From Firmicutes bacterium HGW-Firmicutes-7 (GTDB lineage Bacteria > Bacillota > Clostridia > Lachnospirales > Vallitaleaceae), in NCBI GenBank assembly GCA_002841375.1, contig PGZO01000005.1, positions 124,001-188,000 of the forward strand: a stretch of DNA of 64,000 nt, given 5' to 3'. Below the pieces are notes generated by a model, which worked only from the letters and a program-made list of their open reading frames with translations, was not told the DNA's origin and did no database searches. Below, one piece after another: positions 7,480-23,467 of this stretch; positions within the stretch are counted from its first letter, which is position 1, and each line of letters starts with the position of its first letter. The position numbers were made by a program, and so were the translations under genes.

Positions 7480-7508
7480 AACACTAAGCTTTTTTAGCAC
7501 ATAAAATA
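7480..7508 (+). promoter_or_regulatory. Sigma-K-type promoter of the split gene
   Basis: AACA (7480-7483), exactly 16 bases, then CATAAAATA (7500-7508). This fits the Bacillus subtilis sigma-K consensus mACm-N16-CATAnnnTA at every defined position. The predicted start site near 7515 is just ahead of the AAAGGAG site at about 7525-7531 and the GTG start at 7542. Sigma-K acts in the mother cell late in sporulation. Confidence 0.6.
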
Positions 7509-7541
7509 TATTGAAATCTTTTTTAAAGGAGAAAATAAAAA

Positions 7542-7748
7542 GTGAGTGAATGCAAAATTTGTTTTCATAAAGGTGATGGAAAAATAATGCGACGTCCAGT
7601 TGGTGGTGAATGTGAAGTGTGTAATCCAACACCGATATCACCAATAGAAGATGCTTGCGTATGTCCACCTCTCGGTGAGCCGAGAGGGAAGTGGGGCAAA
7701 AAATTTAAAGCTAAAATATCAACTATATGTTTATTTGAATATTTGTAA
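7542..7748 (+). CDS. Split Cys-rich gene, piece 1 (N-terminal 46 codons) running into element 1
   Basis: N-terminal part of a host gene interrupted by element 1. The GTG start has AAAGGAG 10 bases upstream. Codons 1-46 (to 7679) are host sequence with many Cys (CKIC, CEVC, CVCPPLGE). From 7679 onward the frame reads through attL1 into the element and stops at 7748, giving a chimeric 68-aa product. Joining 7678 to 11662 keeps the frame exactly (codon GAG becomes GAA, both Glu) and continues as GEPKFLPIIAP. After removal of both elements the protein would be 322 aa. No family was recognised. The Cys content and sigma-K-type promoter suggest a coat or exosporium protein, an inference. Confidence 0.75.
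   Translation: MSECKICFHKGDGKIMRRPVGGECEVCNPTPISPIEDACVCPPLGEPRGKWGKKFKAKISTICLFEYL
7655..7699. other. attL1 of recombinase element 1
   Basis: Left junction. The core CGGTGAGCC (7673-7681) is shared with attR1, where it reads CGGTGAACC. On the element side is the arm AGGGAAGTGGGGCAA (7685-7699), an exact inverted copy of the arm at attR1. The crossover dinucleotide is placed at GA (7677-7678) because it is the centre of the rebuilt attP palindrome. Confidence 0.85.
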
Positions 7749-7794
7749 TCAGGACAAATCACCTAATCATATAAGGTTATAGGGGGTGATATGT

Positions 7795-7944
7795 ATGGTT
7801 GGTACTTCTAAGCTAAGCTATAATGGCAAACTAATCAGTCTATCAGAACTAACCAACAATGAATATAAGCAATTTATTATTAGTACAAAATATTCTATAA
7901 CGAAGTCACTTGGAAAGAGAGTGATCCGAGTAATTGAAAAGTAA
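7795..7944 (+). CDS. 49-aa ORF upstream of recombinase 1, candidate directionality factor
   Basis: Small ORF starting with ATG at 7795 behind AGGGGGTGAT. The product is a basic 49-residue peptide (begins MVGTSKLSYNG, ends RVIRVIEK). It lies inside element 1 between attL1 and the recombinase and ends 20 bases before the recombinase start, so the two look co-transcribed. Recombination directionality factors of serine integrases are typically small, basic and encoded beside the integrase, so this is the best candidate in element 1. That role is inferred from position and size only. Confidence 0.6.
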   Translation: MVGTSKLSYNGKLISLSELTNNEYKQFIISTKYSITKSLGKRVIRVIEK

Positions 7945-7964
7945 TAGGTAAGGAGAGATTGTAT

Positions 7965-9404
7965 TTGGAACAAAGAGCTGCTGCATATATTCGTGTTAGT
8001 ACAGCTGATCAAACAGAATTCTCACCAGATGCACAACTAAAACAGATCAGAGAATATGCGAGTAAGAATCACATCATTCTATGTGATGATCATATTTATT
8101 CTGATGAAGGTATTTCAGGTAGGTCAACGGGTAAAAGACTCGCCTTCAATAAAATGATCAAAAATGCTAAGAAAAAGCCTCGGCCATTTGATGTGATTCT
8201 CATACATAAGTTCAATCGTTTTGCTAGAAATAGAGAAGATGCAATTATCTTTAAATCTTTATTAAAACGTGATTGTGGTATTAGGGTAATTTCAATAACG
8301 GAACCTATTGAAGATGATAAGTTTGGCATAATTATAGAGAGTGTGCTAGATGCATTTTCAGAGTATTATTCTCTTAATCTATCTGAGGAAGTCAAAAAGG
8401 GTATGTGTGAGAAAGCTTCTAGAGGTGGCGTTCAATCTAGACCGCCACTTGGTTATGATATTATAGATAACAAGTTGGTTATTAATCAGGAAGAAGCGAA
8501 TATTATTAGAATAATTTTCGATAAGTTCATAAGAAAGGAATTAACGTATCTGTATGTTGCAAATTACCTCAATGAAATGGGGATTAGGAGTAAAAATGGA
8601 AACCTATTTCAAAGTAAAACCATAAAATATATTTTATCAAATCCAACCTACAAAGGTTATTTGCTTTGGAATAAAAAAGAAAAGAATGGTGCTATTCGAC
8701 ATTCCTCTAGTTGGATATTAGCTAAAGGAGATTTTGAACCTATTATATCAGAAGAAGAATTTGAAAAGGCACAAAACAGAGTGGATTTTTTGCTTCAGTA
8801 CAACCATAAGAATGCCAGACCTAGTAGTTCATATAAACACTTCTTATCAGGGATGTTAGTATGCCATGCTTGTGGTGGAAGAATGGTGTTTACAAAAAGT
8901 AAAGAGTTTGCCTATATTCGATGCAGGAAGGCCAAAGAAGGTGGTTGCTCAATGAAGGCAAGTGTTAGGTCGGATGTTCTAGTAAAAGCCGTCCTAGAGC
9001 AAATTGAATTCGATTTGGACACCATTGATCTCTTGGTGGGCGACGTAGAAGTGAAGCGAAACGATTGTGACCTAGATTTTTATAAACAAAAGCTGAAAAA
9101 TATAGAAAATAAGTTTGTACAAGCCAAATATGCTTATTTAAATGGTGTGGATACTTTGTCAGAGTACAAGGAGAACAAAGAACAATTTCAAAAAGAAAAA
9201 GAAGTAATGGCGCGCCATATCAAGACGGTTAATATTGATACGGCCAAAACGAATAAAATGATTGCAATTGCTAAACTAGAGCAAATAACTGAAATTGTAA
9301 ATAGTGGATTGACAATAGAACATAAGAATAAAGTATTAAAGTCATTTATAAATCGTATTGTGATTGATATACCTAACGATGCTTTTGTTATTGAGTACTA
9401 CTAG
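7965..9404 (+). CDS. Large serine recombinase of element 1
   Basis: Site-specific serine recombinase of 479 aa. The N-terminal resolvase domain holds YIRVSTADQ with the expected catalytic Ser (about residue 12) and Arg in NRFARNRED. A recombinase domain follows, then a zinc ribbon (CHACGGRMVF with a later CRKAKEGGC, about residues 300-330), and a long coiled coil (about 365-430) of the kind that governs directionality. Start: TTG at 7965 is 7 bases after AGGAGAG; an in-frame TTG at 7959 is too close. It should integrate and excise element 1 by the GA-centred att sites. It is closely similar in domain order and N-terminal motifs to the recombinase of element 2, but the att sequences differ. 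Confidence 0.95.
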   Translation: MEQRAAAYIRVSTADQTEFSPDAQLKQIREYASKNHIILCDDHIYSDEGISGRSTGKRLAFNKMIKNAKKKPRPFDVILIHKFNRFARNREDAIIFKSLLKRDCGIRVISITEPIEDDKFGIIIESVLDAFSEYYSLNLSEEVKKGMCEKASRGGVQSRPPLGYDIIDNKLVINQEEANIIRIIFDKFIRKELTYLYVANYLNEMGIRSKNGNLFQSKTIKYILSNPTYKGYLLWNKKEKNGAIRHSSSWILAKGDFEPIISEEEFEKAQNRVDFLLQYNHKNARPSSSYKHFLSGMLVCHACGGRMVFTKSKEFAYIRCRKAKEGGCSMKASVRSDVLVKAVLEQIEFDLDTIDLLVGDVEVKRNDCDLDFYKQKLKNIENKFVQAKYAYLNGVDTLSEYKENKEQFQKEKEVMARHIKTVNIDTAKTNKMIAIAKLEQITEIVNSGLTIEHKNKVLKSFINRIVIDIPNDAFVIEYY

Positions 9405-9567
9405 GGACGCGTGGTTGTTAGGTGGTGCGTATAAAAATAAATGGAGAATAAAAACACTTTCAAAATTCGACAAATTAATGTATAATTTGATATAAATAGA
9501 TAATACATATTTAATAATGACAGAAATTGTAATCTATCATTATGTGGAAAAATTTGGAGGTGTTATT

Positions 9568-11573
9568 ATGAAGATTAATTTGTCTAAACGTATCGCCATG
9601 TTTGTAGCAGCTCTTATTATTTTTGTTTCACTAATTCTTGGTATTACCGCAGTAAAATTCAGTTCAGACGTAATTGTAGAAACAGCTGAAGATGCGATGT
9701 TAGAGTATGCAATTGAAGGTGCAAATGAAATGAAAGCCTTAATAGATATTCGATTAGGAATTCTAAATGAGGTTGCAAGTAGAGAAAGAACAAGAACGAT
9801 GATCTGGGAAACACAGATGGTTTCTCTTAGTCAAGATGTAGAAAGATTAGGATATTTAGATATGGCAGTAGTACTTCCTAATGGGACAGCAACCTACGTT
9901 ATTAGTGGTGAAACAGCGCAGTTAGGAGATCGAGCGTATATAAAGAAAGCGTTACAGGGTGAAGCGAATATTTCAGATGTAATCGTTAGTAAAGTAACCG
10001 GAACCACTGTCTTAATTGATGCCGCGCCAATAATGGTTAACGGTAAGGTTGTTGGTGTTTAATGGGTAGAAGAGAAGGAGCTTCACTAAGTGAAATTACA
10101 GATAAAATAGGCATTGGAGAAAAAGGATATGCATTTATTATCGGTGCTGATAGTACCTTTTATGCACATCCAAATAAAGACTATGTTCTTAATCAGTTAA
10201 ATGCTTTTAAGGAAATTGAGTCAAATGGAAGTTTAAAGGAATATGGTCTTGCATTAAAAGAGTTGGGAATTGGGAACCTTGGATTAGCTAATTATGAATT
10301 ATCTGGAGTCAAAAGAATTACAGCTATGGCACCTATTCCAGGTACAAACTGGATGCTAGGAATAGGTAATTATGAAGAAGAATTTTTACATGGCACAGAT
10401 GTAATTAAAAAATCAATTCTAATTATTTCGTTAATATGTGTAATCATTGGTGTAATTGGCGCTTTTGCTATTGGCGGATTTATTGCAAGGCCAATTACTT
10501 ATTTGTCCAAAATTGTTAGCAAGCTTTCTGATTATGATTTAACGATAGCAGACAATGAATCTATTAATAAGCATGCAAAAAGAACAGATGAAATTGGTAT
10601 TATAGCTATGGCAATTATCGGTATGAGAAATAATTTTATTGAATTAATAAAGCAGATATCCATGACTTCTCAACAAGTAGCAGCCTCTTCTGAAGAATTA
10701 ACATCTACCGCTCAACAAGCTGCAACAGCTGCTGATGAAGTAGCTAATGCAATTGGTGAAATTGCAAGTGGTGCAACAGATCAGGCAAAGGAAACAGAGC
10801 AAGGTGCATCAAGTGTTAACGTCTTAAGCGAATTAATTACGAAGGATCAACAATTCATGATTGCGTTAAATGATTCTGCGATTGAAGTCAATCGACTTAA
10901 AGAAGAAGGTATAGACGTATTATTTGAGTTGGTGAAGAAAACCAAAGAAAGTGGTAAGGCTACGGATGATATACATGATGTCATTATTGAAACAAGTCAA
11001 AGTGCTGCAAAGATTGAGAGTGCAAGTCAGATGATTCAAAACATTGCAACTCAAACCAATCTTCTTGCTTTAAATGCCGCTATTGAAGCAGCAAGAGCTG
11101 GAGAGGCAGGTAGAGGTTTTGCAGTTGTAGCAGATGAAATAAGAAAACTTGCAGAACAGTCTAACAGCTTTACAAAAGAAATTACTTCAATTATTCAAGA
11201 GCTATCTGAGAAAACAGATAAATCTGTTATTACTATTAAAGAAGTAGGTAGCATTATATCATCTCAAGCTGAAAGTGTAGAAAGCACCAATGAAAAATTT
11301 GAAGGTATTAATTCAGCTATTGAAACAATGAGAGGTATTTTAAATACCTTGAATGAATCAGGCAATGAAATGAAAGTAAAAAAAGAAGAGATTGTTGGTA
11401 TTATTGAGAACTTGTCAGCAATCTCAGAAGAAAATGCTGCTGGAACACAACAAGCCTCAGCATCCGTTGAGGAACAAACTGCTTCCATGCAAGAAATTGC
11501 GAATGCGAGTGATGAATTAGCTCTATTAGCAGAAGAGATGCAAAAGATTATTGCACAATTTAAATTAGATTAA
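9568..11573 (+). pseudogene. Methyl-accepting chemotaxis protein, frameshifted
   Basis: A chemoreceptor gene broken by what looks like a one-base deletion. The first part (9568-10062; ATG after TGGAGGTG) encodes a TM helix (about residues 9-30) and most of a dCache-type sensor domain, ending GKVVGV-stop. The second part continues in the +1 frame with [15 protein letters not shown], then the rest of the sensor, a second TM near 10405-10480, HAMP, and a full signalling domain with [20 protein letters not shown]. One extra T in the run at 10057-10059 would give GVLMGRREG, the normal MCP sequence. The upstream stop overlaps ATG (TAATG), so reinitiation is possible. It is cargo of element 1. A sequencing error in the T-run is an alternative. 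Confidence 0.85.
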
Positions 11574-11587
11574 AGGTTAAATGTAAA

Positions 11588-11624
11588 GGGCGGTTGCACA
11601 ATTGTTGTGTAATCGCCTTTTTCA
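11588..11624 (+). terminator. Terminator after the chemoreceptor
   Basis: GGCGGTTGCACA pairs with TGTGTAATCGCC through a short loop, with G-U pairs, followed by TTTTTC. It lies at the right end of element 1, just before attR1, and would insulate the host gene fragment beyond. Confidence 0.75.
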
Positions 11625-11638
11625 TTCGTAGGAAAGTG

Positions 11639-11675
11639 TTGCCCCACTTCCCTTACGGTGAACCTAAGTTCTTAC
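11639..11675. other. attR1 of recombinase element 1
   Basis: Right junction. Arm TTGCCCCACTTCCCT (11639-11653) is the exact inverted copy of the arm in attL1, and the core CGGTGAACC is at 11656-11664. The predicted crossover GA is at 11660-11661. Host sequence resumes at 11662 in the same reading frame that stops at attL1. Confidence 0.85.
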
Positions 11676-12325
11676 CAATTATTGCACCCGTAGTTTTTGA
11701 TGAATGTGGTATAAACCTTTGTAGAGAAATTGTTATACCTGAAGACATTATTGATGATTTTCCAACCGCAACAGCTGTTGAATTAAAAGTTATTGACATC
11801 GACTTCAACTTAGATAAGGAAGAAGGATCAAGGGTAGAAACCATTTCTAGAAGACCAAACTGTGTAAGAGTAAGGCTAGCAAGATTGTGCGTTAAATTTA
11901 TTGCAAAATTTTTAGATCCTAATTGTAGAGTTTTAGGTGAAAGATGTTTCAATGCTGAATATTTACCTGATTCTGATGCACCATCGTTTGATGAAGATAC
12001 GAATCCTTCCTCTGTTACAGTTGAACTTTATGCACCATATGGCGTATCCTATGCTGAAATATGTGGATGTTTAAAACCAAGTATTAATTTCCTAGGTTTT
12101 GTCGAATGGCCAGATAGAAATAATGATCTACGTCAAGGCATAAACAGTCAAGTTTTAGCAAAAGTTATTGATTTAGACTTGGTAGCTGGCGTAATGGCTG
12201 TAGGCTTATCAGTTTATTTGAAATCAGTATATTTCGTTCAGTATAAGATTAAGCACGCTGGACTATGCATTTTAAAAAGACAAAGAAAGATCGTTTCAAG
12301 TTGGCAATTAGAAAATAGCATTTAA
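11662..12325 (+). CDS. Split Cys-rich gene, piece 2 (200 codons), no start of its own
   Basis: Middle part of the split host gene. The open frame begins inside the upstream terminator, so it has no true start; host sequence runs from 11662 to 12261, giving 200 codons after the joined Glu. It contains scattered Cys (DECGINLC, LARLCVKF, RCFNAEY, EICGCLKP) and hydrophobic beta-rich stretches. At the right it meets attL2 at KHAGL, then runs 21 codons into element 2 and stops. Joining 12261 to 23236 keeps the frame (GGA becomes GGG, both Gly). Protein family not recognised. Confidence 0.75.
12245..12285. other. attL2 of recombinase element 2
   Basis: Left junction of element 2. The core GCACGCTGG (12253-12261) is repeated directly at attR2. 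The element-side arm AAAAGACAAAG (12275-12285) is inverted at attR2. An inner TGCATT near 12266-12271 also pairs with AATGCA of attR2. Crossover is placed at GG (12260-12261). Confidence 0.85.
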
Positions 12326-12332
12326 AATTCTC

Positions 12333-12361
12333 TTGACAAAGGCACGAAGAACCGATATAAC
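12333..12361 (+). promoter_or_regulatory. Sigma-A promoter of the sugar operon
   Basis: TTGACA (12333-12338), 17-base spacer, TATAAC (12356-12361). It lies about 70 bases inside the left end of element 2, so the operon travels with its own promoter. About 30 bases downstream is the dyad TGTTAC-AG-GTAACA (12392-12405), a possible operator. The leader up to 12503 holds nothing else I recognise. Confidence 0.7.
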
Positions 12362-12391
12362 AAAAATGAGCGCAAAACTAGCCAGTATTAT

Positions 12392-12405
12392 TGTTACAGG
12401 TAACA
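12392..12405. promoter_or_regulatory. Dyad in the sugar-operon leader, possible operator
   Basis: TGTTAC and GTAACA flank a two-base centre, a compact inverted repeat downstream of the strong promoter. It may bind a repressor; the cognate regulator is unknown. The CdaR-type protein two genes downstream is one candidate. Confidence 0.35.
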
Positions 12406-12503
12406 TTGCCATCCGTTGTTTAACGATCTAAAATGAAACTTAAGCAATTATTTTTATTAAATACAAATAAATATAAATAAACATAAAGAATTATGGAGAT
12501 GAC

Positions 12504-13412
12504 ATGAAAATAATAAATTTTGGTTCGTTGAATATTGATAATGTCTATCGTGTAGATCGGTTAGTTTTATCAGGTAATACCATTGATAGTAAAGGATATA
12601 AGGTTTTTTCAGGAGGAAAAGGACTGAACCAAAGTGTGGCTATTAGTAAAGCAGGCGTGTCTGAGGTTTATCATGTAGGTAATATAGGAATGAATGGTGA
12701 GTTTCTTATGTATACACTGCTAGAGCATGGCATAAATACCGATTTTATTAAAAGGAGTAGCTGCAAGACGGGACATGCTGTTATTCAGGTGGCAGATAAT
12801 GCTGAACATACAATTATTATTCATGGGGGAAGTAACCATAATATTGATATTGATTTCATCGACAGTGTGCTTCAAGAATTTCAGGCAGGTGATTTATTGT
12901 TATTGCAAAATGAAATCAATAATGTAGGCTATATTATTGATACTGCTTATGAAAAGGGGCTTGTCATTATTTTGAACCCGGCGCCAGCAAATGAGAAGAT
13001 ATTAGAATATGATTTGTCAAAGATTGATACATTAATTGTTAATGAATCTGAGCTTTATCAATGTGCTAGAACAAATCATTTAAAGGATGCTATAGATATT
13101 ATAAGACAAAAAGGGATTAATTTATTGCTGACACTAGGCTGTAAAGGTGGTATTTACTATTCAAAAGATCATAAAGAATATAAATACTTGGCTTATAAAG
13201 TAGATGAAGTAGATACAACAGCTATAGGAGATGCCTTTGTAGGCTATTTTGTTGCAGGACTAACTAAATATGATGACATGACACAAATTCTTGATCTAAG
13301 TTCTAGAGCGGCAGCATTAACAGCAACGAATATGGGGGCTTCAAATTCTATTCCTTCATTAGATGAAGTACTTAGTTTTAATAAAGAAGGTAAAAACTGT
13401 TATGAAGATTAA
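12504..13412 (+). CDS. PfkB-family carbohydrate kinase
   Basis: Cytoplasmic sugar kinase of the ribokinase family, 302 aa, normal length. The N-terminal PfkB signature is GGKGLNQSVA and the C-terminal one is DTTAIGDAFVGYFVAG with the catalytic Asp in AIGDAF. Start ATG after TGGAGATGAC. It is the first gene of the sugar operon and overlaps the CdaR-type gene by 11 bases. A second PfkB kinase ends the same operon. Substrate unknown; the ribose-type transporter suggests a pentose or pentulose. Confidence 0.88.
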   Translation: MKIINFGSLNIDNVYRVDRLVLSGNTIDSKGYKVFSGGKGLNQSVAISKAGVSEVYHVGNIGMNGEFLMYTLLEHGINTDFIKRSSCKTGHAVIQVADNAEHTIIIHGGSNHNIDIDFIDSVLQEFQAGDLLLLQNEINNVGYIIDTAYEKGLVIILNPAPANEKILEYDLSKIDTLIVNESELYQCARTNHLKDAIDIIRQKGINLLLTLGCKGGIYYSKDHKEYKYLAYKVDEVDTTAIGDAFVGYFVAGLTKYDDMTQILDLSSRAAALTATNMGASNSIPSLDEVLSFNKEGKNCYED

Positions 13413-14502
13413 TCAAGGGCAAGCTATTAATATTGTAAACAATTTAAAGGGACTAATTTATAACGATATATTTATTTTAGATTCAGATGGACTAGCTTTA
13501 GCCAGTAATAAGGATATTATTGATGATAAGTATATAGTGTATGGTAAAGCCGTATCACGGGACAACAAAATTCTCGTTGTGAATGAAGAAAATTTGAATC
13601 ATAAGTGCATTCTTATACCTGTTAATTTAGATGATGAACTGGTTGCCATTATTGGCCTGTCTGGTGATTTTGAAAATGTAAGTCAATATGGAGAAATCAT
13701 CGTAAAAGTTACGGAAATTCTATTAAGAGAATCTATTCATTATGAGCGTAAGATTAAAAGTAGAGAAAATGATCGATTTTTAATGAACGAGTTGTTTTCA
13801 GACACAATAGACTACCATTACGTAGCTTCCAAAGCCAAATTATTAGGGTATGACATCGAATCATTTAAGGTCTTATCTATTGTGGACATACCATATGCTG
13901 ATAAAAGAGTAATGACCTATGAAGATATTGTGGATTGTATAGAAAGTTGTTTAAAGCCGAGTGATCTAGTAGGAATATATGAAACCAATATTATTATTCT
14001 GCAAACTGAGGATGATCCTGCAAGTATTAAGAAAAGATTGAAAACTATTAAAGATTATCTTGATAAAAAACTCTTTTCACCTATTACGATTGGAATATCA
14101 AATAAAATTATGCATGTTGGTGATATAAAAATGGCATATTATCAATCATTAAAATTATTACAAATACCAGCAATTAAGGCCTCAGATGGAATTTATGATT
14201 TCGAAGATTATGCGCTTGAATTGGTGTTTTTTGGAATTTCTCCTCAAATAAGCAATAATTTTATTAAGAATATATTTAATAATTTAACTCGTAAAGAGAT
14301 GGATGAAATTAGTAAGCTATTGGAAGTATACATGAATAACAATGGATCAATCAATCAAACAAGTAAGGTGTTATTTATACATAAAAATACGTTGCAATAT
14401 AGACTAAATAAAATAAAAGATAAAACAGGGTATAACCCAAGAGATCTAAAACAATTATATAGATTATATACAGCTTTAACGTTCTATTACTTGAGAGATT
14501 AG
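13402..14502 (+). CDS. CdaR/PucR-type transcriptional regulator
   Basis: 366-aa regulator. The N-terminal part resembles the putative sugar-diacid recognition domain of CdaR (INQGQAINIVNNLKG, FILDSDGLALASN). The C-terminus is a PucR-type HTH (FIHKNTLQYRLNKIKDKTG). Start ATG at 13402 overlaps the kinase end; the upstream in-frame start at 13363 would lie deep in the kinase. Probable regulator of the operon it sits in. Ends before a UUCG-loop terminator. Confidence 0.85.
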   Translation: MKINQGQAINIVNNLKGLIYNDIFILDSDGLALASNKDIIDDKYIVYGKAVSRDNKILVVNEENLNHKCILIPVNLDDELVAIIGLSGDFENVSQYGEIIVKVTEILLRESIHYERKIKSRENDRFLMNELFSDTIDYHYVASKAKLLGYDIESFKVLSIVDIPYADKRVMTYEDIVDCIESCLKPSDLVGIYETNIIILQTEDDPASIKKRLKTIKDYLDKKLFSPITIGISNKIMHVGDIKMAYYQSLKLLQIPAIKASDGIYDFEDYALELVFFGISPQISNNFIKNIFNNLTRKEMDEISKLLEVYMNNNGSINQTSKVLFIHKNTLQYRLNKIKDKTGYNPRDLKQLYRLYTALTFYYLRD

Positions 14503-14546
14503 TTTCTATAAATAATTGTATTTGACAATTCAGCTTAAATAATGAT

Positions 14547-14577: not shown

Positions 14578-14698
14578 ATTTTAGAACTGATGTAACAAAA
14601 AAAATGTTTTTTTATTCCTTATTTTATAGCATGTGTAACATTGTCTTGAAGTGTTAGACTTGTTAGAATTACTATATTAAATGAACAAGGAGTATATG

Positions 14699-15493: not shown

Positions 15494-16648
15494 ATGAAGA
15501 AAATACTATCTATTATTATGGCAATGATGTTACTTGTAACAGTTTTTGCAGGGTGTGCAAAGAGTGAACCAACAACAGGGGATACAACGAAGGAAACGGA
15601 AGTTGAAGCAGGAGAAACTGTAAACGAAATAGATCAACTACCGGCAGCAGATGTTGCAGAACAAGGGTATGATTTTTATGATGGCGCAATGACCTATGGT
15701 GATGCAATTGCAAAATTAGGTGCTATACCTAAGCCAGATAAAGCCTTACAACTTGGCTATGTATGCAAAGCATTTGAAAATGAGTTTTGGAGAATGCAAA
15801 AAGAAGGTGCTGAACAAGTTGTTTCTCAACTTCAAGATATGGGCTATGATATTAAAATTGATGTTAGAGCTGCGCAAGGTGAAACAGATGAACAAGGTCA
15901 ACTTGCCGTATTCAGTGATATGATTAACAAATCTTATGATGGAATTTTAGTTTCAGCAATTTCACCAGGTAATTTAGTTCCTGGAGCAGAAGAAGCAAAT
16001 AAGAAAGGCATTGAAATGGTTGTTTCTATGGACGCGTTTATGCCACAAATCGAAAGTACAGTTGGTGCTTGGCATTATCAAGCGGGCCAACTTGCAGCAG
16101 AATATATTAATAATGCAATTGGTGGTAAAGGAGAAGTAGCAATTATTCAAGGATTACCTAAGGCATCACCAGCGATTACTAGAACTGAAGGATTTAAGAA
16201 GTGGTTTGAAGACAATAATCCAGAGGTTAAGGTGGTTGCAGTTCAAAATGCTGATTGGGATCGTATGAAAGCAAAAGATATTATGGACATTTGGTTAAAA
16301 CAATATCCAGATTTAAAAGGTGTATATGCCAACAATGATACGATGGCAATGGGTGCGTTAGAAGCAGTTAGAGCAGTTGATAAGATTGGAACAATTGTTA
16401 TTGTTGGAACAGATGGTACATCAGAAGCTAAAGATTCGATTGCTAACGGTGAGCTTACTGCAACAGTTGACTCCTTCCCATATTATATGGCTCAAATATC
16501 TACAGAAATGCTTATTAGAAAGCTTATGGGCCAAGATGTACCAAAGGTTATTTATTCACCTCAAGTTGTTGTTGATAGTGCCAATGTATCTACAGACGCA
16601 TTAGAAATTATGAATTCAGTTGGATGGGATGGACCTAAGTTTGAATAG
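15494..16648 (+). CDS. Sugar ABC transporter substrate-binding lipoprotein
   Basis: 384-aa periplasmic-binding-protein-like lipoprotein of the ribose/xylose type. Signal peptide with lipobox (VFAGC, Cys at about residue 20), a Ser/Thr/Glu-rich linker, then the binding domain (from about residue 80) with QGLPKASPAITRTEGF and NNDTMAMGALEAVRA. It has an N-terminal extension of about 60 residues compared with RbsB. The ATPase and permease follow after an intercistronic hairpin. Ligand unknown; the two PfkB kinases suggest a sugar phosphorylated after import. Confidence 0.9.
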   Translation: MKKILSIIMAMMLLVTVFAGCAKSEPTTGDTTKETEVEAGETVNEIDQLPAADVAEQGYDFYDGAMTYGDAIAKLGAIPKPDKALQLGYVCKAFENEFWRMQKEGAEQVVSQLQDMGYDIKIDVRAAQGETDEQGQLAVFSDMINKSYDGILVSAISPGNLVPGAEEANKKGIEMVVSMDAFMPQIESTVGAWHYQAGQLAAEYINNAIGGKGEVAIIQGLPKASPAITRTEGFKKWFEDNNPEVKVVAVQNADWDRMKAKDIMDIWLKQYPDLKGVYANNDTMAMGALEAVRAVDKIGTIVIVGTDGTSEAKDSIANGELTATVDSFPYYMAQISTEMLIRKLMGQDVPKVIYSPQVVVDSANVSTDALEIMNSVGWDGPKFE

Positions 16649-16660
16649 CTTATAACAACC

Positions 16661-16701
16661 TTTGAGATTACGGTTAGTTTTGGATTAGCCGTAATCTCAA
16701 A
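16661..16701 (+). other. Intercistronic hairpin between binding protein and ABC ATPase
   Basis: TTTGAGATTACGG pairs perfectly with CCGTAATCTCAAA, with extra inner pairs. No T-run follows, so it more likely protects the upstream mRNA 3' end, raising binding-protein yield, than terminates fully. Confidence 0.7.
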
Positions 16702-16745
16702 TATAAATCTATGAGTGAATGATTATAAGTAGGGGTGATCGCAAA

Positions 16746-18245
16746 ATGAATAATAATGACAATTATATTAGATTTGAAAATATAACCAAAGCCTTTGCTG
16801 GACAAAGAGCAGTTAATGATGTCTCTTTTGGCATTAGAAAGGGTGAAATTCACGCTATAATGGGCGAGAATGGTGCAGGAAAATCAACCTTATTAAACTT
16901 ATTGCATGGTGTCCATCAACCTTCTAATGGGTGCATCTATATAGACGGTAAGATGACAAAATTTCATAATATTCATGATGGAATAGTAGCTGGGATTTGT
17001 AAAATTCATCAGGAAATAAATGTTGTATCTGAATTATCAGTCATGCAAAACCTCATGTTAGGGTCTGAATTAAGTCGGTATGGATTTGTGAAAAAGAAAG
17101 AGATGATCAAAGAAACAAATGAAATATTAAGGCGACTTAAATGTAATTTTTCATCCATGGATAAGATTGGACCTTTAAGTGCAGGCCATAAACAAATGAT
17201 ACAAATAGCTAGAGCACTTAGAACAAATGCTAAAATAATATCTTTTGATGAACCAACAGCATCTCTAAGTAACAATGAAGTTGATATTTTGTTTGAAATT
17301 ATGAGAGACTTGAATAATCAAGGGATAACAATATTGTATATTAGTCACAAGTTAGATGAAGTGTTGAAAATTTGTGATAGAGCAACAATATTAAGAGATG
17401 GAAAATATATAAATACATATGAAATTAAAAATACAAGTAAAGAAGAATTAATAAAAAGCATGGTGGGTCGAGATGTATCTATGTTTGCAAAACGTACGAA
17501 ACCAAGCCGTGTAAGGCAAGATAAAACAGTACTAAAGGTCGAAAATTTATGCGGAGAAACGTTTAAGAATATAAGTTTTGACTTGAAGCAATCAGAAATA
17601 TTAGGATTTTTTGGGTTAGTTGGTGCGCAGAGAACGGAAGTCATGCGAACAATATTTGGAGCAGACAAGAAGTTCGATGGAAAGATATATCGTAAAAACG
17701 AATTGATCAATAACAAAACACCAAATGAAGCTATTAAAAATGGTATAGCGTTTGTTTCAGAAAATCGTAAAGAGGAAGGGTATATTAAGGAATTTAGTAA
17801 TTCAAATAATATAGCCCTTGCGTCTTTATCAAAATATATGGAGCGAGGTATGGTAAGCAGAAAGCTCAAAAATGAAAATTCTATTAATCAAGGAAGTTAT
17901 GTGGGACTATATCCGAATGATCCAGAATTTTATACAAATAACCTCTCGGGAGGTAATGCACAAAAAGTTATATTAGCAAAGTGGCTTTCAACCGACGCAG
18001 ACATTATCATTCTTGACGAGCCAACTAAAGGGATTGATGTAGGAGCAAAAACTGAAATCTATAAATTAATGGAAGAAATATTAGAAAACGGAAAATCTAT
18101 CATTTTGGTTTCTTCAGAGTTAACTGAAGTTATGGGGATGAGTGATAAAATAATAGTAATGAATGAAGGTAAGATGGTTGGGGAATTAGATAAAAGTGAT
18201 TTTTCAGAAAAAGATATATTATCAGACGCTTTAGGAGGTAATTAA
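16746..18245 (+). CDS. Sugar ABC transporter ATP-binding protein (RbsA/MglA type)
   Basis: 499-aa tandem ABC ATPase. First half: Walker A GENGAGKST, signature LSAGHKQMIQIARAL, Walker B ISFDEPTASLS. Second half: degenerate Walker A GLVGAQRTEVMRTIFG, signature LSGGNAQKVILAKWL, Walker B IILDEPTKGIDVG. This asymmetry is normal for the family. ATG at 16746 follows GGGGTGATC; the ATG at 16719 is upstream of that site. Partner of the permease 1 base downstream. Confidence 0.95.
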   Translation: MNNNDNYIRFENITKAFAGQRAVNDVSFGIRKGEIHAIMGENGAGKSTLLNLLHGVHQPSNGCIYIDGKMTKFHNIHDGIVAGICKIHQEINVVSELSVMQNLMLGSELSRYGFVKKKEMIKETNEILRRLKCNFSSMDKIGPLSAGHKQMIQIARALRTNAKIISFDEPTASLSNNEVDILFEIMRDLNNQGITILYISHKLDEVLKICDRATILRDGKYINTYEIKNTSKEELIKSMVGRDVSMFAKRTKPSRVRQDKTVLKVENLCGETFKNISFDLKQSEILGFFGLVGAQRTEVMRTIFGADKKFDGKIYRKNELINNKTPNEAIKNGIAFVSENRKEEGYIKEFSNSNNIALASLSKYMERGMVSRKLKNENSINQGSYVGLYPNDPEFYTNNLSGGNAQKVILAKWLSTDADIIILDEPTKGIDVGAKTEIYKLMEEILENGKSIILVSSELTEVMGMSDKIIVMNEGKMVGELDKSDFSEKDILSDALGGN

Positions 18246-18246
18246 G

Positions 18247-19233
18247 ATGAAGAAGTTTATTAAACGAAATTCACGAGAGCTCAGCATTGTTATTGCCATT
18301 GTAATCATGGGTGTTGCCTTTGGAATAAAAGAGCCTATATATTTATCTGGTGATAATATGAAAGATATTTTTGAACAATCCATTATATATGGTTTAATGG
18401 CGCTAGGGATGACTGCAGTGATTATTTCAGGAGGGATAGATCTTTCAGTTGGTTCAGCACTTGCACTAATCTGTGTGATTATTTCAAAAGCTGCGGTTGG
18501 TGGATTATCTCCATTTATTGCAATTTTATTAGCATTCGCTATAAGTATTACGCTAGGGTTATTTAATGGAATTCTTGTATCAAACTTAAAATTACAACCT
18601 TTTATCGCGACCTTAGGCACAATGTCCGTTTATCGAGGTATAGCATATTTAGTATCGGATGGATATCCAGTTCTTAATGTTCCGAGTGAATACCGAAAGT
18701 TAATAAATGGAGATTTCTTAAATATAGTAGATACATCGACTATTTTATTTATAGGTTTTGCATTATTCATGTATTTTATAATGACGAAACTCAAACTTGG
18801 GACATATATATATGCAATTGGTGGCAATGAAGAAGCAGCTAGGCTTTCAGGTATTAAAATTAGTTCTGTTAAAGTTAAGATTTATGCAATAGCGATGATT
18901 GGAACAGGAATTGCGGCAATGATCCAAGTCGCTAGGCTTGGCACTGGGGATCCTACAACTGGACAAGGATATGAATTGAATGCAATTGCTGCTATCGCAA
19001 TTGGTGGTACAAGTATGGCGGGTGGTAGAGGCACAATAGTTGGGACATTACTTGGGGCAATCCTATTTGCAGGGCTTAGAAATGGTCTAATTGTATCAAA
19101 TGTAGCAACGTTTTGGCAATATGTTGCTACCGGTGTTGTAATTATTATTGCAGCATATATTGAAGTTATACAAGATAATTTTGCCAAAATATTTAAGAAA
19201 AAAGGTTCAGAGACACAAGGAATAACTGTTTAA
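18247..19233 (+). CDS. Sugar ABC transporter permease (RbsC type)
   Basis: 328-aa inner-membrane permease of the ribose/xylose/galactose family with about 8-10 helices. Family motifs GGIDLSVGSALAL and GGTSMAGGRGTIVGTLLGA are present. Start ATG follows GGAGGTAATTAAG and the stop of the ATPase gene directly, indicating translational coupling. Confidence 0.95.
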   Translation: MKKFIKRNSRELSIVIAIVIMGVAFGIKEPIYLSGDNMKDIFEQSIIYGLMALGMTAVIISGGIDLSVGSALALICVIISKAAVGGLSPFIAILLAFAISITLGLFNGILVSNLKLQPFIATLGTMSVYRGIAYLVSDGYPVLNVPSEYRKLINGDFLNIVDTSTILFIGFALFMYFIMTKLKLGTYIYAIGGNEEAARLSGIKISSVKVKIYAIAMIGTGIAAMIQVARLGTGDPTTGQGYELNAIAAIAIGGTSMAGGRGTIVGTLLGAILFAGLRNGLIVSNVATFWQYVATGVVIIIAAYIEVIQDNFAKIFKKKGSETQGITV

Positions 19234-19266
19234 TAATATATAATTTAAATGTCAGGAGATGATAAA

Positions 19267-20175
19267 GTGGAATATGCCGTTGTTTGTGGTAGTCTAAATA
19301 TGGATTTTGTCTGTAGAGGACCACGTATACCCGCACCAGGAGAAACAATTTTAGGATATGACTTTTCAACAAGTATAGGAGGAAAAGGTGGAAATCAGGC
19401 GGTGGCGCTCACGAATCTTGGAATAACTACCTATATGATTGGTTGTATTGGGAAGGATCCCTATGGAGATGAAATCTATCAAGCATTAAAAGAAAAGGGC
19501 GTTGAAGTTGAGACTGTAAGAAGGGTCGATAAAACAACGGGTACGGCGCATATAATGATAGAAGATAGTGGGGAAAACAATATCGTTGTTGTACCCTCTG
19601 CCAATATGTCAGTTTCATATGAATTAGTGAAAGAAAGTGAAAAATTAATCTCTGGAGCTTGTGTGCTTTTAGCACAATTAGAAATTTCAATAGAAACCGT
19701 AAAGCAATTTATGCTGTTGGGAAAAAAATATAAAATATTAAATGTTCTTAATCCTGCACCAATGCCGCCAGAGGGTATTTCAAATGAACTGTTAGCGCTT
19801 GTAGACATATTGACACCAAATGAAAGTGAAATGAAGCTTTTAACTGGAATAGAAGTGTGTGATCAAGAGAGCTTTATGATAGCAGCCAATATTTTACATG
19901 ATAAAGGTGTTGCCCAAGTAATATGCACAGCAGGAGCTAAAGGCGCTTATTATAGCGATGGTAAGCGTATTTATTTTCAGAGCGCCTTTAAAGTAATGGC
20001 CGTGGATACAACGTGTGCAGGTGATAGCTTTACAGGTGCACTGATTACAAGGCTGTTAGAAGGTGCGCCTATTACGGATGCATTAGCATTTGCTGCTAGA
20101 GTAGCCTCCTTAACGGTTATGAAACCGGGTGCGCAAGATTCAATACCTAAGAGAAAAGAAGTAGAGGATTTATGA
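19267..20175 (+). CDS. rbsK: Ribokinase (PfkB family)
   Basis: 302-aa sugar kinase with GGKGGNQAVALTNLG near the N-terminus and DTTCAGDSFTGALITRLLEG with the catalytic Asp near the C-terminus, both close to ribokinase. The GTG start at 19267 is preceded by CAGGAGATGA; an ATG at 19249 lies upstream of this site and is less likely. Last gene of the transporter operon, followed by a terminator. Ribose specificity is inferred from the context. Confidence 0.85.
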   Translation: MEYAVVCGSLNMDFVCRGPRIPAPGETILGYDFSTSIGGKGGNQAVALTNLGITTYMIGCIGKDPYGDEIYQALKEKGVEVETVRRVDKTTGTAHIMIEDSGENNIVVVPSANMSVSYELVKESEKLISGACVLLAQLEISIETVKQFMLLGKKYKILNVLNPAPMPPEGISNELLALVDILTPNESEMKLLTGIEVCDQESFMIAANILHDKGVAQVICTAGAKGAYYSDGKRIYFQSAFKVMAVDTTCAGDSFTGALITRLLEGAPITDALAFAARVASLTVMKPGAQDSIPKRKEVEDL

Positions 20176-20196
20176 AATAATAGTAACAAAAATCAT

Positions 20197-20240
20197 AAAA
20201 CACGATGAAGTATTCGTACTTGGTCGCGTTTTTTTGTTTG
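20197..20240. terminator. Terminator between rbsK and the DUF421 gene
   Basis: An imperfect stem, AACACGATGAAGTA with TACTTGGTCGCGTT around a TTCG loop, is followed by a T-run. It ends the + strand operon and abuts the convergent minus-strand gene. Confidence 0.8.
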
Positions 20241-20241
20241 T

Positions 20242-20964
20242 TTATTCAATTCCATATTGTCCATGATACTCTTGAGTTTGGGGTTGATTAACAGATACAT
20301 AAAGATTTCCAGAAGAATCAAGGCCTGCATAAAAGACCTGTTTTGCACTATCAATCCCTTGATTGGACAATTGGGTATTAAGCCATGTCTCATCTAATTT
20401 TACTGATTTTAGATTTTCAAATAGTACTTTTCCATCCATAATCAAGTCCTTTGATAAGCCTTTATAGGTAGTAGATAGGTTTAAATCTGAAGGCGTTAAA
20501 GGTGCCTTTTGAGATTTGGGTAAAACCGACAGTTGACCATCATTTTCTATAATGGCAAATTCTACGTCTGCATAATCAAATACATTTTTTTGCCTTAGCA
20601 TGCTGGTTAATTCACTTACTGTAAAGCGAACCTTTTTTAAATTTTTATCAATAATTTTTCCGTTTTCGATTGCTGTTACTGGTTCACTATTCGTTATTTT
20701 GCTGATCCACACACTTTTTATATGCAAATATCCAGTTAGAATAGCAAGTCCACCAAGTGTTAATAACGAAGCTACAGCAGATGCGGGCGTGCTATTTTGT
20801 CCCATTGCAAGGTTAGCAGTTACGGATCCTAAAGTTATTATTACTGAAAAATCAAAAAAAGTCATCTGTGAAAGCCCTTTTCTTCCCATCAATCTAGTAA
20901 CACCTAAAAGTAAGCTATAAGCAATGATTGCTCTAAAAATGGAAGATAAAATGTCTTGATACAT
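20242..20964 (-). CDS. DUF421 (YetF-like) membrane protein
   Basis: 240-aa protein: three N-terminal membrane helices (about residues 8-75) followed by the soluble DUF421 domain, with TRLMGRKGLSQMTFFDFSV and GKPLTFDDL-like spacing. YetF-type proteins are common in sporulating Firmicutes; their biochemical role is not settled. ATG at 20964 has AAAGGAGGC upstream; an earlier ATG at 20985 lies ahead of that site. Cargo of element 2, on the same strand as the recombinase. Confidence 0.85.
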   Translation of the reverse strand: MYQDILSSIFRAIIAYSLLLGVTRLMGRKGLSQMTFFDFSVIITLGSVTANLAMGQNSTPASAVASLLTLGGLAILTGYLHIKSVWISKITNSEPVTAIENGKIIDKNLKKVRFTVSELTSMLRQKNVFDYADVEFAIIENDGQLSVLPKSQKAPLTPSDLNLSTTYKGLSKDLIMDGKVLFENLKSVKLDETWLNTQLSNQGIDSAKQVFYAGLDSSGNLYVSVNQPQTQEYHGQYGIE

Positions 20965-21057
20965 AAAAACGCCTCCTTTGTTCATTATTACAGTTTGTCC
21001 AAAGCAAATGATAGTTATTGCAGTAAATAATGGCCTTTAGTATGAAAGTTGACTAAG

Positions 21058-22506
21058 CTATATATAATAATAGAGATTGATGCTTTTATTCATTAAATCA
21101 ATATTAATTTTTTCAATAAATTGCTTTGCTGCTTTATTCTTATCGCTTTCAGAAATATTATCAGTTGTAATAAGTGATTTGAAATTTGCAAGTTTTATTG
21201 ATTTGAAAATTTCAGGACCTATTTTAGTAGATGTTGCTTTGATTCGTTCCATTATTTCAGTTTCTTCTCGTGAAATATTCTCTTTATTCTTTTTGTATTC
21301 TTCTAAGCTATCTATTTCTCCAATATAGGCTTTATAGATTAATTCATATTGACGGTGTAGCTTAACTAATTTTTTATTCAGTATATCGAGTTCGTCGTTT
21401 AACTTAGCAACAGTTTTTACCATTGTTACATTAATATTTCCAAGACTAAAATCCACATTAAATTTCTCGAGAAGAAGGGTATTCAGCTTAATGGCTGAGA
21501 AGGTATTGTTTACATTGCAGGCACCTTGATAAGCTTTAGCACATCTAAAATAATGATATCGAATGTTTTTGCGTGTTACATGCAGTATACGAAGGGTTGA
21601 ACCACAATGCTTGCATCTGACAAGCTTTTGCATCCAAGATTTAATTTGGTAAGGGTCGGTGTCTTTTCGAAGCAAAGTGCAATTATTCTTAAGGATGGCT
21701 TGCGTCTTTTCAAATATGTCTTTCGTAATGGCAGGTTGATGCACCGATTGAATTAAAATCCATTCGGATTCAGGATTAATTTGATTTGTTTTAGGAACTC
21801 TGTAATTATATCTAGTATATCCCATATATACGTGATTTCGTAGTAGGTAACGTAAGGATTGCTTAGTCCATGATTTGTTGTTTTTTGTTCTTATGTCCCG
21901 AACATTTAAATGCCGAACAATGTCTAATAAAGAGGAACCAGTATTAAACATTTCAAATATTTTCCGAACAACAAGAAACTCAGTAGGATGCGGTATAAGG
22001 TTTTTATCTTCTAATTTATATCCGTAAGGAAGATTACCAATATGTTCGCCGCGGCTGGCTTTTTCAAACATCCCTTTTTTAACTTCATCTGATAAATTCA
22101 AACTATAATATTCAGCCATTGCTTCTAACATCGATTCTAGAATAATTGAAAACTTGTCATCTTCGAGGGTTTCAGTAATACTTAGTACTTTTACGTTACA
22201 TTCTTTACGAAGTAAAGCTTTATAAACAACACTGTCTTCACGGCTGCGAGCAAAACGATCAAACTTGTGCACAAGGATTACATCAAAAGGGTTTGGTTTT
22301 TTCTTTGCAGTAGCAATCATAAGCATAAATGCTGGACGTTTTTCAGCTCGTCTTCCAGAAATACCTTGATCTACAAATATGTAGTGTTCATCTACAAAAA
22401 AATTATGATCTTTAGCATATTTTAATAATGATTTTTTCTGTGCATCGGGGCTATATTCAATCTGGTCATCTGTTGATACTCTAATATAAAGTGCGGCTAT
22501 TTGCAT
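21058..22506 (-). CDS. Large serine recombinase of element 2
   Basis: 482-aa serine recombinase. Resolvase domain with LYIRVSTDDQ (catalytic Ser about residue 11) and DRFARSRED, central recombinase domain, zinc ribbon (CKHCGSTLRI and a later CAKAYQGAC), and C-terminal coiled coil (about 370-440). It shares the conserved SPDAQ, KKKP.PFDVIL and SLNLS(D/E)EVKKGM motifs with recombinase 1, so both belong to one subfamily. It sits about 730 bases from attR2 with two small ORFs between. Should act on the GG-centred att2 sites. Confidence 0.95.
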   Translation of the reverse strand: MQIAALYIRVSTDDQIEYSPDAQKKSLLKYAKDHNFFVDEHYIFVDQGISGRRAEKRPAFMLMIATAKKKPNPFDVILVHKFDRFARSREDSVVYKALLRKECNVKVLSITETLEDDKFSIILESMLEAMAEYYSLNLSDEVKKGMFEKASRGEHIGNLPYGYKLEDKNLIPHPTEFLVVRKIFEMFNTGSSLLDIVRHLNVRDIRTKNNKSWTKQSLRYLLRNHVYMGYTRYNYRVPKTNQINPESEWILIQSVHQPAITKDIFEKTQAILKNNCTLLRKDTDPYQIKSWMQKLVRCKHCGSTLRILHVTRKNIRYHYFRCAKAYQGACNVNNTFSAIKLNTLLLEKFNVDFSLGNINVTMVKTVAKLNDELDILNKKLVKLHRQYELIYKAYIGEIDSLEEYKKNKENISREETEIMERIKATSTKIGPEIFKSIKLANFKSLITTDNISESDKNKAAKQFIEKINIDLMNKSINLYYYI

Positions 22507-22558
22507 AGGATAACAACCTTTATGTTAATGGTATACCTACTATTATGATTTGCCAATT

Positions 22559-22572
22559 ATTAGCATGCTAAT
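22559..22572. promoter_or_regulatory. 14-bp perfect palindrome between recombinase 2 and the small ORFs
   Basis: ATTAGCATGCTAAT is a perfect palindrome about 55 bases upstream of recombinase 2 and 150 bases upstream of the first small ORF. A likely protein-binding site controlling one or both divergent transcripts; the binding protein is unknown. Confidence 0.4.
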
Positions 22573-22615
22573 TTGAGGATAAAGTTAATAAATTAAACAG
22601 TTTTAACTCCATTTT

Positions 22616-22623
22616 CATACAAT
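22616..22623 (+). promoter_or_regulatory. Possible sigma-E-type -10 ahead of the small ORFs
   Basis: CATACAAT matches the sigma-E -10 consensus CATACAmT, about 100 bases upstream of the 82-aa ORF. The matching -35 (consensus kmATATT) is poor, so this is only a candidate. Confidence 0.25.
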
Positions 22624-22724
22624 AATCTTTTTAATCATATACATAGATAAGTTTAAGAGAAGGAGCACAAGAATCCTAGAAGCAGTGAGAAATATAATAG
22701 AAGATATTTTGGAGGAATTTATAA

Positions 22725-22973
22725 ATGCATGACACTTTTTTATTCGAAAACATTAAAAAAGCAGTTTTTACTTTGTGTGAGAATAATGCAATTAAAAGAT
22801 TAACTTATATAAATGTCAGTGTATACGTAGAGAGTCATGTGAATGAAGTAGCTTTGTATAATAAGCTAAAGGACTCAAATAGCAATTTGATTGGAGATTG
22901 GACTAAAGTAGCTGTTGAACATAACAATCCAAAACGTTTAACAGCCACAATTAATCAAATTGAGGGAGATTAA
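22725..22973 (+). CDS. 82-aa protein of element 2, candidate directionality factor
   Basis: Small acidic/neutral protein (begins MHDTFLFENIKKAVF) with an excellent TTTGGAGGAATTT site before the ATG. No family recognised. It lies between the recombinase and attR2, transcribed away from the recombinase. Just upstream an AGAAGGAG site leads into a 19-codon frame (22673-22732) that begins with ATC and overlaps this start, possibly a decayed leader ORF. Position and size suit a recombination directionality factor or its regulator; this is inference. Confidence 0.65.
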   Translation: MHDTFLFENIKKAVFTLCENNAIKRLTYINVSVYVESHVNEVALYNKLKDSNSNLIGDWTKVAVEHNNPKRLTATINQIEGD

Positions 22974-23018
22974 GTTTATATTGTGTAAGTAAATAAAAAA
23001 TAATGCGAGGTGATGCAT

Positions 23019-23198
23019 GTGGAGATTACCGTAGGGAAGGATACTTGGGAGGTAAGATCATTTGTAACCATAAGCGCTACAGGTGAATGTTATAGCTATG
23101 ATGAGCTATCAGATGAAGACAAGAGAAAATACGCTGAGATTTTTAATGAGAGAGCATTTAATGTTCTAGGGTATAAGAAAGATGAAAATGAAAAATAG
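23019..23198 (+). CDS. 59-aa protein of element 2, unknown
   Basis: Small acidic protein (VEITVGKDTWEVRSF ... DEDKRKYAEIFN) ending 36 bases before the attR2 crossover. GTG at 23019 is chosen because GAGGTG lies 6 bases upstream; in-frame GTG 23010 and ATG 23013 overlap that site. No family recognised. With the 82-aa ORF it forms a two-gene unit at the right end of element 2. Confidence 0.55.
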   Translation: MEITVGKDTWEVRSFVTISATGECYSYDELSDEDKRKYAEIFNERAFNVLGYKKDENEK

Positions 23199-23209
23199 CA
23201 TAAGATTAA

Positions 23210-23250
23210 CTTTGTCTTTTAGGAATGCACGCTGGGCTTTGCGTACCACC
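23210..23250. other. attR2 of recombinase element 2
   Basis: Right junction: arm CTTTGTCTTTT (23210-23220), inner AATGCA (23224-23229), core GCACGCTGG (23227-23235). Crossover GG at 23234-23235. Host sequence resumes at 23236 in frame with piece 2. Confidence 0.85.
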
Positions 23251-23467
23251 AAAGTGTATTGCAATTGAAGAAGCTGGTGATGCATGTAAAGAATTCGTAG
23301 AAGGTGATTTGTTAGAACAAAGTATTCAACCGTTAGAAGTATGTGCGAAACCAAAAACGATTGACCCATGTGACTTCGAACCAGTTGAAGACCCAACTCC
23401 TACAGAAGCTGTTGAAGAAGTTAAAGATGTTGATAATAGAAGAAAAAATCCATTTAGATTTTCATAA
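23236..23467 (+). CDS. Split Cys-rich gene, piece 3 (C-terminal 76 codons), no start of its own
   Basis: C-terminal part of the split gene. The frame has an in-frame ATG at 23225, but that lies in the element side of attR2 and has no ribosome site, so it is not a genuine start. Host codons read HAGLCVPPKCIAIEEAGDAC and end in an acidic, Pro-rich tail (DPTPTEAVEEVKD) with a basic end (RRKNPFRFS). Joined to piece 2 at the Gly codon it completes a 322-aa protein. Cys pairs (CVPPKC, VCAKPKTIDPC) match the Cys-rich style of pieces 1 and 2. Confidence 0.75.

Follow-up and report, generated by a model that had tools for sequence, protein, structure and literature searches.

A cysteine-rich, spore-linked gene of Vallitaleaceae split by independent serine-recombinase elements that probably leave in the mother cell

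We analysed a stretch of 64,000 nucleotides from Firmicutes bacterium HGW-Firmicutes-7 (hereafter the window, meaning that whole stretch), in which a cysteine-rich gene lies in three pieces that are separated by two different elements (Table 1). An earlier annotation made from the letters alone, referred to here as the sequence-only reading, had placed the three pieces and proposed that they form one continuous frame. Rejoining the sequence at these positions confirmed this, giving a frame of 969 bases that codes for 322 residues plus a stop, with 19 Cys among the 322, and in which the two joins rebuild codons 46 (Glu) and 246 (Gly) exactly, with no base added or missing. The product fits none of the families in Pfam or NCBIfam, those of sigma factors among them, so the target gene is not sigK, the gene that is interrupted by the skin element. 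Fer2_BFD was considered as a family for the product and rejected, as only 3 of 22 homologs matched it (best E 0.00068), which we took as an effect of the Cys motifs. A search of the PDB with the gene product returned nothing solid, and an AlphaFold model of a homolog (from stretch L046), which has a beta-rich core and a mean predicted local distance difference test score (pLDDT) of 64.8, gave no clear fold match with Foldseek and VIA-align. Considering its Cys content, its promoter and its distribution, the product is probably a Cys-rich protein of the coat or an outer layer.

Each of the two gaps encodes one large serine recombinase, as the sequence-only reading had stated, and both enzymes carry the Resolvase, Recombinase and zinc-ribbon domains. 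Intein or intron origins were ruled out, as each gap has a recombinase and attachment (att) sites. The sugar-uptake operon that had been noticed in one of the elements was also borne out, in element 2: the PfkB kinase and the periplasmic binding protein were named by Pfam, the transaldolase and the ABC ATPase by PHROGs, and the regulator, the permease and the second kinase by reading and similarity. In element 1, the sensor and signalling halves of a chemotaxis receptor sit in two overlapping frames, which is why we regard this receptor as frameshifted or misread. No phage head, tail or packaging families were found among the 12 proteins scanned in the window's two elements. Beyond the window, ten other elements likewise encode their own site-specific recombinase (the site-2 enzyme of genome G017 is cut in one stretch and whole in another). 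Small open reading frames (ORFs) of 49 and 62 residues are candidate recombination directionality factors, one in each window element. Of 20 stretches scanned for the motif that they share, 4 contain it (those of both window elements, element 2 of the same-genus genome G001 and the phage contig L128); a directionality factor common to all of the elements was sought in these 20 stretches and was not found. An 82-residue ORF of element 2, which resembles a small ORF in G001, looks like a remnant.

Table 1 Features of the split gene and its two elements (window positions).
Feature	Position	Strand	Remarks
Sigma-K-type promoter of the split gene	7478-7508	+	GTAAC 7478-7482, 17-base spacer, CATAAAATA 7500-7508
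5' piece of the split gene	7542-7679	+	GTG start, residues 1-46
attL1 core CGGTGAGCC	7673-7681	+	Central dinucleotide GA at 7677-7678
Element 1, about 4.0 kb	7679-11661		
Palindromic arm of attL1, AGGGAAGTGGGGCAA	7685-7699		
49-residue ORF, candidate directionality factor	7795-7944	+	Upstream of recombinase; motif shared with 62-residue ORF of element 2
Large serine recombinase of element 1	7959-9404	+	481 residues; Resolvase, Recombinase, zinc-ribbon domains
Methyl-accepting chemotaxis protein, cargo of element 1	9517-11573	+	Overlapping ORFs 9517-10062 and 10062-11573; Pfam, second ORF only
Palindromic arm of attR1, TTGCCCCACTTCCCT	11639-11653		
attR1 core CGGTGAACC	11656-11664	+	GA at 11660-11661
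Middle piece of the split gene	11663-12262	+	Residues 47-246
attL2 core GCACGCTGG	12253-12261	+	Central dinucleotide GG at 12260-12261
Element 2, about 11.0 kb	12262-23235		
Sugar operon, cargo of element 2	12504-20175	+	PfkB kinase, regulator, transaldolase, periplasmic binding protein, ABC ATPase, permease, second PfkB-like kinase
YetF/DUF421 membrane protein, element 2	20242-20985	-	dN/dS 0.06 vs G001
Large serine recombinase of element 2	21058-22506	-	482 residues; Resolvase, Recombinase, zinc-ribbon domains
82-residue ORF, element 2	22725-22973	+	68% identity to small ORF within the NiFe-hydrogenase cluster of G001, same element
62-residue ORF, candidate directionality factor	23010-23198	+	Beside attR2; homolog in G001 element 2; shared motif
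attR2 core GCACGCTGG	23227-23235	+	GG at 23234-23235
3' piece of the split gene	23237-23467	+	Residues 247-322 and stop

The crossover core reads CGGTGA(G/A)CC at both ends of element 1 and GCACGCTGG at both ends of element 2. Bringing together the outer arms of each window element gave a dyad centred on GA for element 1 (19 of 25 positions matching) and on GG for element 2 (18 of 25), versus 10 and 10 for the rebuilt attB sites at the same centres; the attP-like palindromic ends that had been described from the letters are therefore real. As a control, a random fixed centre in the window reaches at least 14 with a frequency of 0.0034, and when the centre was allowed to float over 86-base stretches, 18 was reached in 13/3000 and 19 in 8/3000. 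Across seven genomes there are 12 such junctions (six at site 1, five at site 2 and one at a third site, in G017), and all 12 rejoin in frame without gain or loss to give frames of 316-324 residues, which would happen by chance with a probability of 2e-6 at one in three per junction. In G021, the left end codes for Asp, and joining brings back the conserved Glu. The crossover dinucleotide, which was set by the best dyad in the window's own genome, G000 (GA at site 1, GG at site 2), and carried over by alignment, is the same on both ends at 6/6 site-1 and 5/5 site-2 junctions; for the third site of G017, CA is the chosen centre within a short repeat. The rebuilt attP is palindromic on the crossover dinucleotide at 11/12 junctions (dyads of 14-20 in 25), and the other sites rebuilt for the 12 junctions score 7-14 (attB), 8-13 (attL) and 6-11 (attR). 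This arrangement, with a short core common to attL and attR and a palindromic attP after joining, is the layout expected for serine-integrase sites.

To place the gene among relatives, the joined protein was searched against 59 genomes (its own and relatives), which gave matches in 20, and a scan of named genomes gave 33 homolog loci. Homologs ending at residue 46 or missing the other pieces would have contradicted the proposal of a single three-piece gene, but the proposal stood: the uninterrupted homologs that this comparison sought reach into all three pieces, among others those of G005 (query residues 1-305), G009 (1-313), G042 (2-315) and G055 (2-302), which are single-frame homologs with 61-66% identity. 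Within the family (Vallitaleaceae), the gene is present in 9 of the 22 genomes searched and is split in 7 of these 9. Three genomes are split at sites 1 and 2 (G000, G001 and G013), G017 is split three times (at both of these sites and at a third, near residue 150), and three have a single element, at site 1 (G003 and G021) or site 2 (G020); in G005 and G009 the gene is intact. An assembly artefact was ruled out, as the same sites are split in seven genomes. Order-wide, the gene occurs in 56 of 392 genomes, 47 of them outside the family, and no element-sized gap between two matches was found in these 47 (partial matches of divergent copies left aside); G067 and G331 each have two matches, either overlapping or separated by about 90 bases, and G169 has two copies on two contigs. 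The comparison of relatives thus supports the claim of two independent serine-recombinase elements in one gene, with precise excision restoring the frame. The accompanying description of the locus as unusual needs widening. Within the family the split state is the rule (7/9 gene-bearing genomes), one relative has three elements, and both of the spore formers in which the gene is intact have a second spore-linked gene that is split.

A link between the split gene and late mother-cell sporulation is supported by two lines of evidence from the genomes. First, GTAAC followed, after a spacer of about 17 bases, by CATAnnATA was present in 13/13 upstream regions chosen from four families of the order; this pattern has an expectation of 0.027 per 150 bases in the window and fits the sigma-K consensus. 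Second, the family genomes with SpoIVA (PF09547) are precisely those that have the gene, whether split or intact, 9 of the 22 (agreement in 22/22; Fisher 2e-6). As these nine genomes represent three of the eight family genera, there are fewer independent events than the P value suggests. Over the order, SpoIVA was matched in 54 of the 56 gene-bearing genomes versus 278 of 392 overall (Fisher 4e-7, with kinship ignored and the lists compared by reading). By this association, the elements would sit in a sporulation gene whose frame is restored on joining.

The pieces of the gene are also under purifying selection. Between G000 and G001, the ratio of nonsynonymous to synonymous substitution rates (dN/dS) is 0.27, 0.05 and 0.12 for the 5', middle and 3' pieces, at synonymous divergences (dS) of 0.18, 0.98 and 0.58. 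For the middle piece it is 0.03-0.10 in the seven other listed pairs with unsaturated dS and 0.03-0.07 in the five listed pairs among G003, G013, G017, G020 and G021; for the short 5' piece it is noisy (0.06-0.27 over all listed pairs). Pieces that were never read would not stay so constrained. The recombinases gave 0.11, 0.18 and 0.09 (three pairs computed), and six cargo genes of element 2 gave 0.06-0.10 when compared with the same-genus element in G001. Two side observations concern the site-1 recombinases of G003 and G013. Their dS is 0.41, far above that of the host gene (0.03-0.12), and in both (L039 and L033, respectively) the frame that holds the catalytic serine extends upstream of the first ATG/GTG/TTG start; these two enzymes may start at a rarer codon.

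A search of the 22 family genomes with the second window recombinase found 13 close enzymes and many distant ones. Eleven of the 13 sit in the split gene, and the other two, in G005 and G009, lie within the second spore-linked gene. In a tree with 7 distant family enzymes, the 13 form one clade (100/100), and the enzyme from G017's third site falls in a different lineage. When phage enzymes were added and three long branches left out, the clade held (100/100) and now included the enzyme of L128. The site-2 enzymes formed one clade (100/99) in the family-only tree; in the tree with phage enzymes they fall as G000/G001 with L128, G017/G020 with a prophage, and G013 alone. Site-2 specificity may therefore have more than one origin. 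Restriction of the clade to spore-linked genes holds for the 22 family genomes searched. The best NCBIfam match of the second window recombinase, and the third-best of the first, is XisF, although the scores of the window enzymes (112.7 and 123.4 bits) do not reach its equivalog cut-off of 375 bits.

The second spore-linked gene codes for about 428 residues with a C-terminal peptidoglycan-binding domain, and is present in exactly the nine family genomes with SpoIVA. It is split in G005 (L109:6400-11481) and G009 (L110:3010-10800) and intact in the other seven gene-bearing family genomes, including G000 (L115:3623-4891). By eye, it rejoins as WMTQWG in G009, as in the intact relatives, and in frame as WMRQWE in G005. 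The window genome itself has a third, distant serine recombinase (31% identity) on contig C28, while both of its clade members sit in the split gene. This third enzyme (L115:7088-9074 in G000; see also L133) abuts the 3' part of a gene that by reading is L,D-transpeptidase-like with peptidoglycan binding; the gene is whole in G001 (L134:6164-6871), and its 5' piece in G000 was not seen in the stretches read. The genes adjoining this recombinase look like a conjugative element.

Relatives differ in what their elements carry, as judged from a cargo scan that covered part of the ORFs. Elements that lie wholly within one contig measure 3 to 22 kb. The sugar operon of element 2 is mostly common to G000 and G001 (87-93% identity), with the transaldolase absent from G001, whose element 2 also holds a NiFe hydrogenase and maturation genes. 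At site 1, G021 carries sigma-54, a sigma-54 activator and a transport operon, and G013 carries an aminotransferase, a hydroxyacid dehydrogenase, a short-chain dehydrogenase and a thiolase. A GerA-type germination-receptor operon lies within the element that splits the second gene in G009 (L110:4079-8889; GerAC, Spore_permease, GerA and Spore_permease families). Vegetative- or spore-line genes within the departing elements would explain why the elements are retained.

A connection to phages comes from the IMG/VR record G392 (L129, L131 and L132), from a Vallitalea-type strain close to G013, whose site-1 element is 98% identical over 2745 bases. In this record, a site-1 recombinase lies on one flank of the middle piece and a site-2 recombinase on the other, at the core CATGCAGG. 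The site-2 enzyme groups with those of G017 and G020 (100/100), and behind it follow genes for a terminase, portal, head protease, major head, contractile-tail sheath, tape measure and baseplate, so that phage structural genes, absent from the scanned proteins of the window elements, are present here. The record covers one side of the insertion, with the far end and the 3' piece outside it. Fragments in the site-2 element of G020 are 81-85% identical to this phage, and the site-2 element of G017 has a methyltransferase gene and an endolysin-like gene. At site 2, relatives range from a prophage via phage remnants to a phage-free element, and the window elements look domesticated, considering that they hold metabolic cargo under purifying selection and no structural phage genes. 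As a separate observation, G021 (L036) has an extra 3' fragment of 137 bases (96% identical). It begins close to the site-2 core, on the downstream side and some 7.5 kb from the gene's intact 3' end, and is preceded by a stretch with a phage-like ORF of 59 residues (75% identical to G392). This displaced fragment is probably the fossil of a past site-2 prophage.

As for the surroundings of the split gene in the window, a divergent gene of 477 residues lies upstream (5917-7350), with a C-terminal half that reads as coiled-coil-like. This neighbour is beside the split gene in 7 of 8 other family loci tested, G020 being the exception, and the downstream TPR gene turned up at just one of these loci, that of G001.

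Overall, we consider it very likely that the gene is reconstituted in the mother cell by independent serine-recombinase elements, in the manner of sigK/skin or gerE/gin and with more than one element. The split gene would be a late mother-cell sporulation gene read from its sigma-K-type promoter, and in the vegetative genome it would be interrupted by two independent site-specific elements, each with a large serine recombinase. During sporulation, each recombinase, together with a small directionality factor, would join its own attL to its own attR, so that the element leaves as a circle with a palindromic attP and the attB left behind restores codon 46 or 246. The cost would fall only on the mother cell, which dies, and the spore would keep both elements. 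Excision in living cells, when and in which cell it takes place, the part of the directionality factors and the coat role are what we infer from the evidence given above.

Several points weigh against this explanation. Excision itself is deduced here from sequence, and the coat label, for which the searches gave no family and no clear fold match, leans on Cys content, promoter and distribution and amounts to a guess. Upstream of the recombinases, no clear sigma-E or sigma-K match was found. Among the junctions, the attP dyad at site 1 of G017 is weak (10 of 25), the attB at site 2 of G013 also reaches 14, and 2 of the 12 join pieces from different contigs (site 1 of G003 and site 2 of G017), so these links are deduced. 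G175 and G207 bear the gene without a SpoIVA match, and homologs also occur in records of Epulonipiscium, some members of which make no mature spores. Finally, the recombinase of the phage contig L128 falls within the clade, beside the window's site-2 enzyme, and by reading seems to adjoin a truncated transporter gene; not all relatives outside the family are therefore in spore genes.

Three other explanations were weighed against mother-cell reconstitution. Ordinary lysogeny, in which the coding cores are phage or island attachment sites, excision is random or induced and chance excisers are selected, is compatible with reconstitution in the mother cell, and the elements clearly do have kin among phages. 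It gains from the structural genes (terminase, portal, head and contractile tail) behind the site-2 recombinase at the middle-piece core of G392, from the phage-like genes or fragments in the site-2 elements of G017 and G020 and from the second phage-like contig, L128. However, none of the 12 window-element proteins scanned is a head, tail or packaging protein, the metabolic cargo is under purifying selection, and a working gene needs the departure of every one of its two or three elements, an outcome that excision at random would seldom produce; we regard it as unlikely. Considerably less probable is a knock-out by two mobile elements with no programmed excision, the pieces being decaying remains. 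That excision is deduced here would suit this view, as would the absence of the gene from 13 of 22 family genomes and the broken, displaced 3' fragment of G021. It conflicts with the purifying selection seen for every piece, at dS values as high as about 1, and with the promoter, att cores and recombinases that are kept in 7 genomes with 12/12 junctions in frame; moreover, the 13 gene-less genomes also lack SpoIVA, which indicates that the gene goes with sporulation. A split protein, with the pieces as separate genes for short cooperating proteins and the elements as fixed spacers, can point to the 243-codon open frame around the window's middle piece and is nonetheless highly improbable, as no conserved start was seen for the middle or 3' piece, G013 and G017 have in-frame stops just upstream of junctions, the uninterrupted homologs are single proteins, and the piece ends coincide with the att cores.

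Mother-cell reconstitution has precedents. The gin element in gerE of Bacillus cereus ATCC10987 is free of phage genes, has three recombinase genes, and its excision has been shown (PMC5595907). The resemblance to the present case is close: a phage-gene-free element, a late mother-cell sporulation gene, a serine recombinase and a frame restored across a short overlap; in gin, an additional factor acts with the serine recombinase in excision. Unlike gin, which is one element in a regulator gene, there are one to three independent one-recombinase elements here, the target is a Cys-rich and probably structural gene, and excision, demonstrated for gin, is deduced from sequence. The skin element in sigK of Clostridioides difficile and Bacillus subtilis, which is prophage-like, also uses a serine recombinase with mother-cell timing, and in C. 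difficile encodes its directionality factor (PMC5025042, PMC4191935); the target here is not sigK, and a gene may hold more than one element. SP-beta in spsM, vfbin in spoVFB, vrin in spoVR and yin in yabG also lie in sporulation genes (PMC4191935, PMC10747680), with reconstitution by excision shown for spsM (PMC4191935), but these are single elements with phage genes, in other genes, in Bacilli or Clostridium. Several elements in one gene, with their own recombinases, are known from heterocysts (nifD, nifH, hupL and others), where 10 of 87 interrupted genes have several, nifD of Rivularia is cut by four, and the recombinases mostly group by insertion site (PMC4874684). The XisF of the fdxN element is among the NCBIfam matches noted above, whereas the cell concerned is a cyanobacterial heterocyst instead of a spore mother cell and the genes are different. 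Titles and abstract openings of mostly open-access literature yielded no sporulation gene with several elements and no Vallitalea case. As far as these sources go, one element per sporulation gene, in a small number of genes, and several per heterocyst gene were already known, and several per spore-linked gene would be new.

A broader proposal, which we hold to be evenly poised, is that in Vallitaleaceae a phage-derived recombinase clade made late sporulation genes multi-lock, with one to three excisions needed in the mother cell, while several elements shed phage genes and gained host operons, resulting in a programmed differentiation of soma and germ-line genomes. Apart from this proposal, the family has its own clade of elements that repeatedly hit the same conserved codons of one spore-linked gene, with up to three at once, and the intact relatives, the fossil, the phage remnants and the prophage at one site form a natural gradation between phage infection and domestication. 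For three target sequences that lie close together, these elements also provide serine recombinases matched with their att sites. It becomes testable why spore genes retain such elements, what coordinates several excisions in one gene and whether the genomes of mother cell and spore routinely differ. If the proposal is true, the mother-cell genome would be stripped of gene sets (sugar uptake, hydrogenase, sigma-54, amino-acid biosynthesis and germination-receptor operons) that only the spore line keeps.

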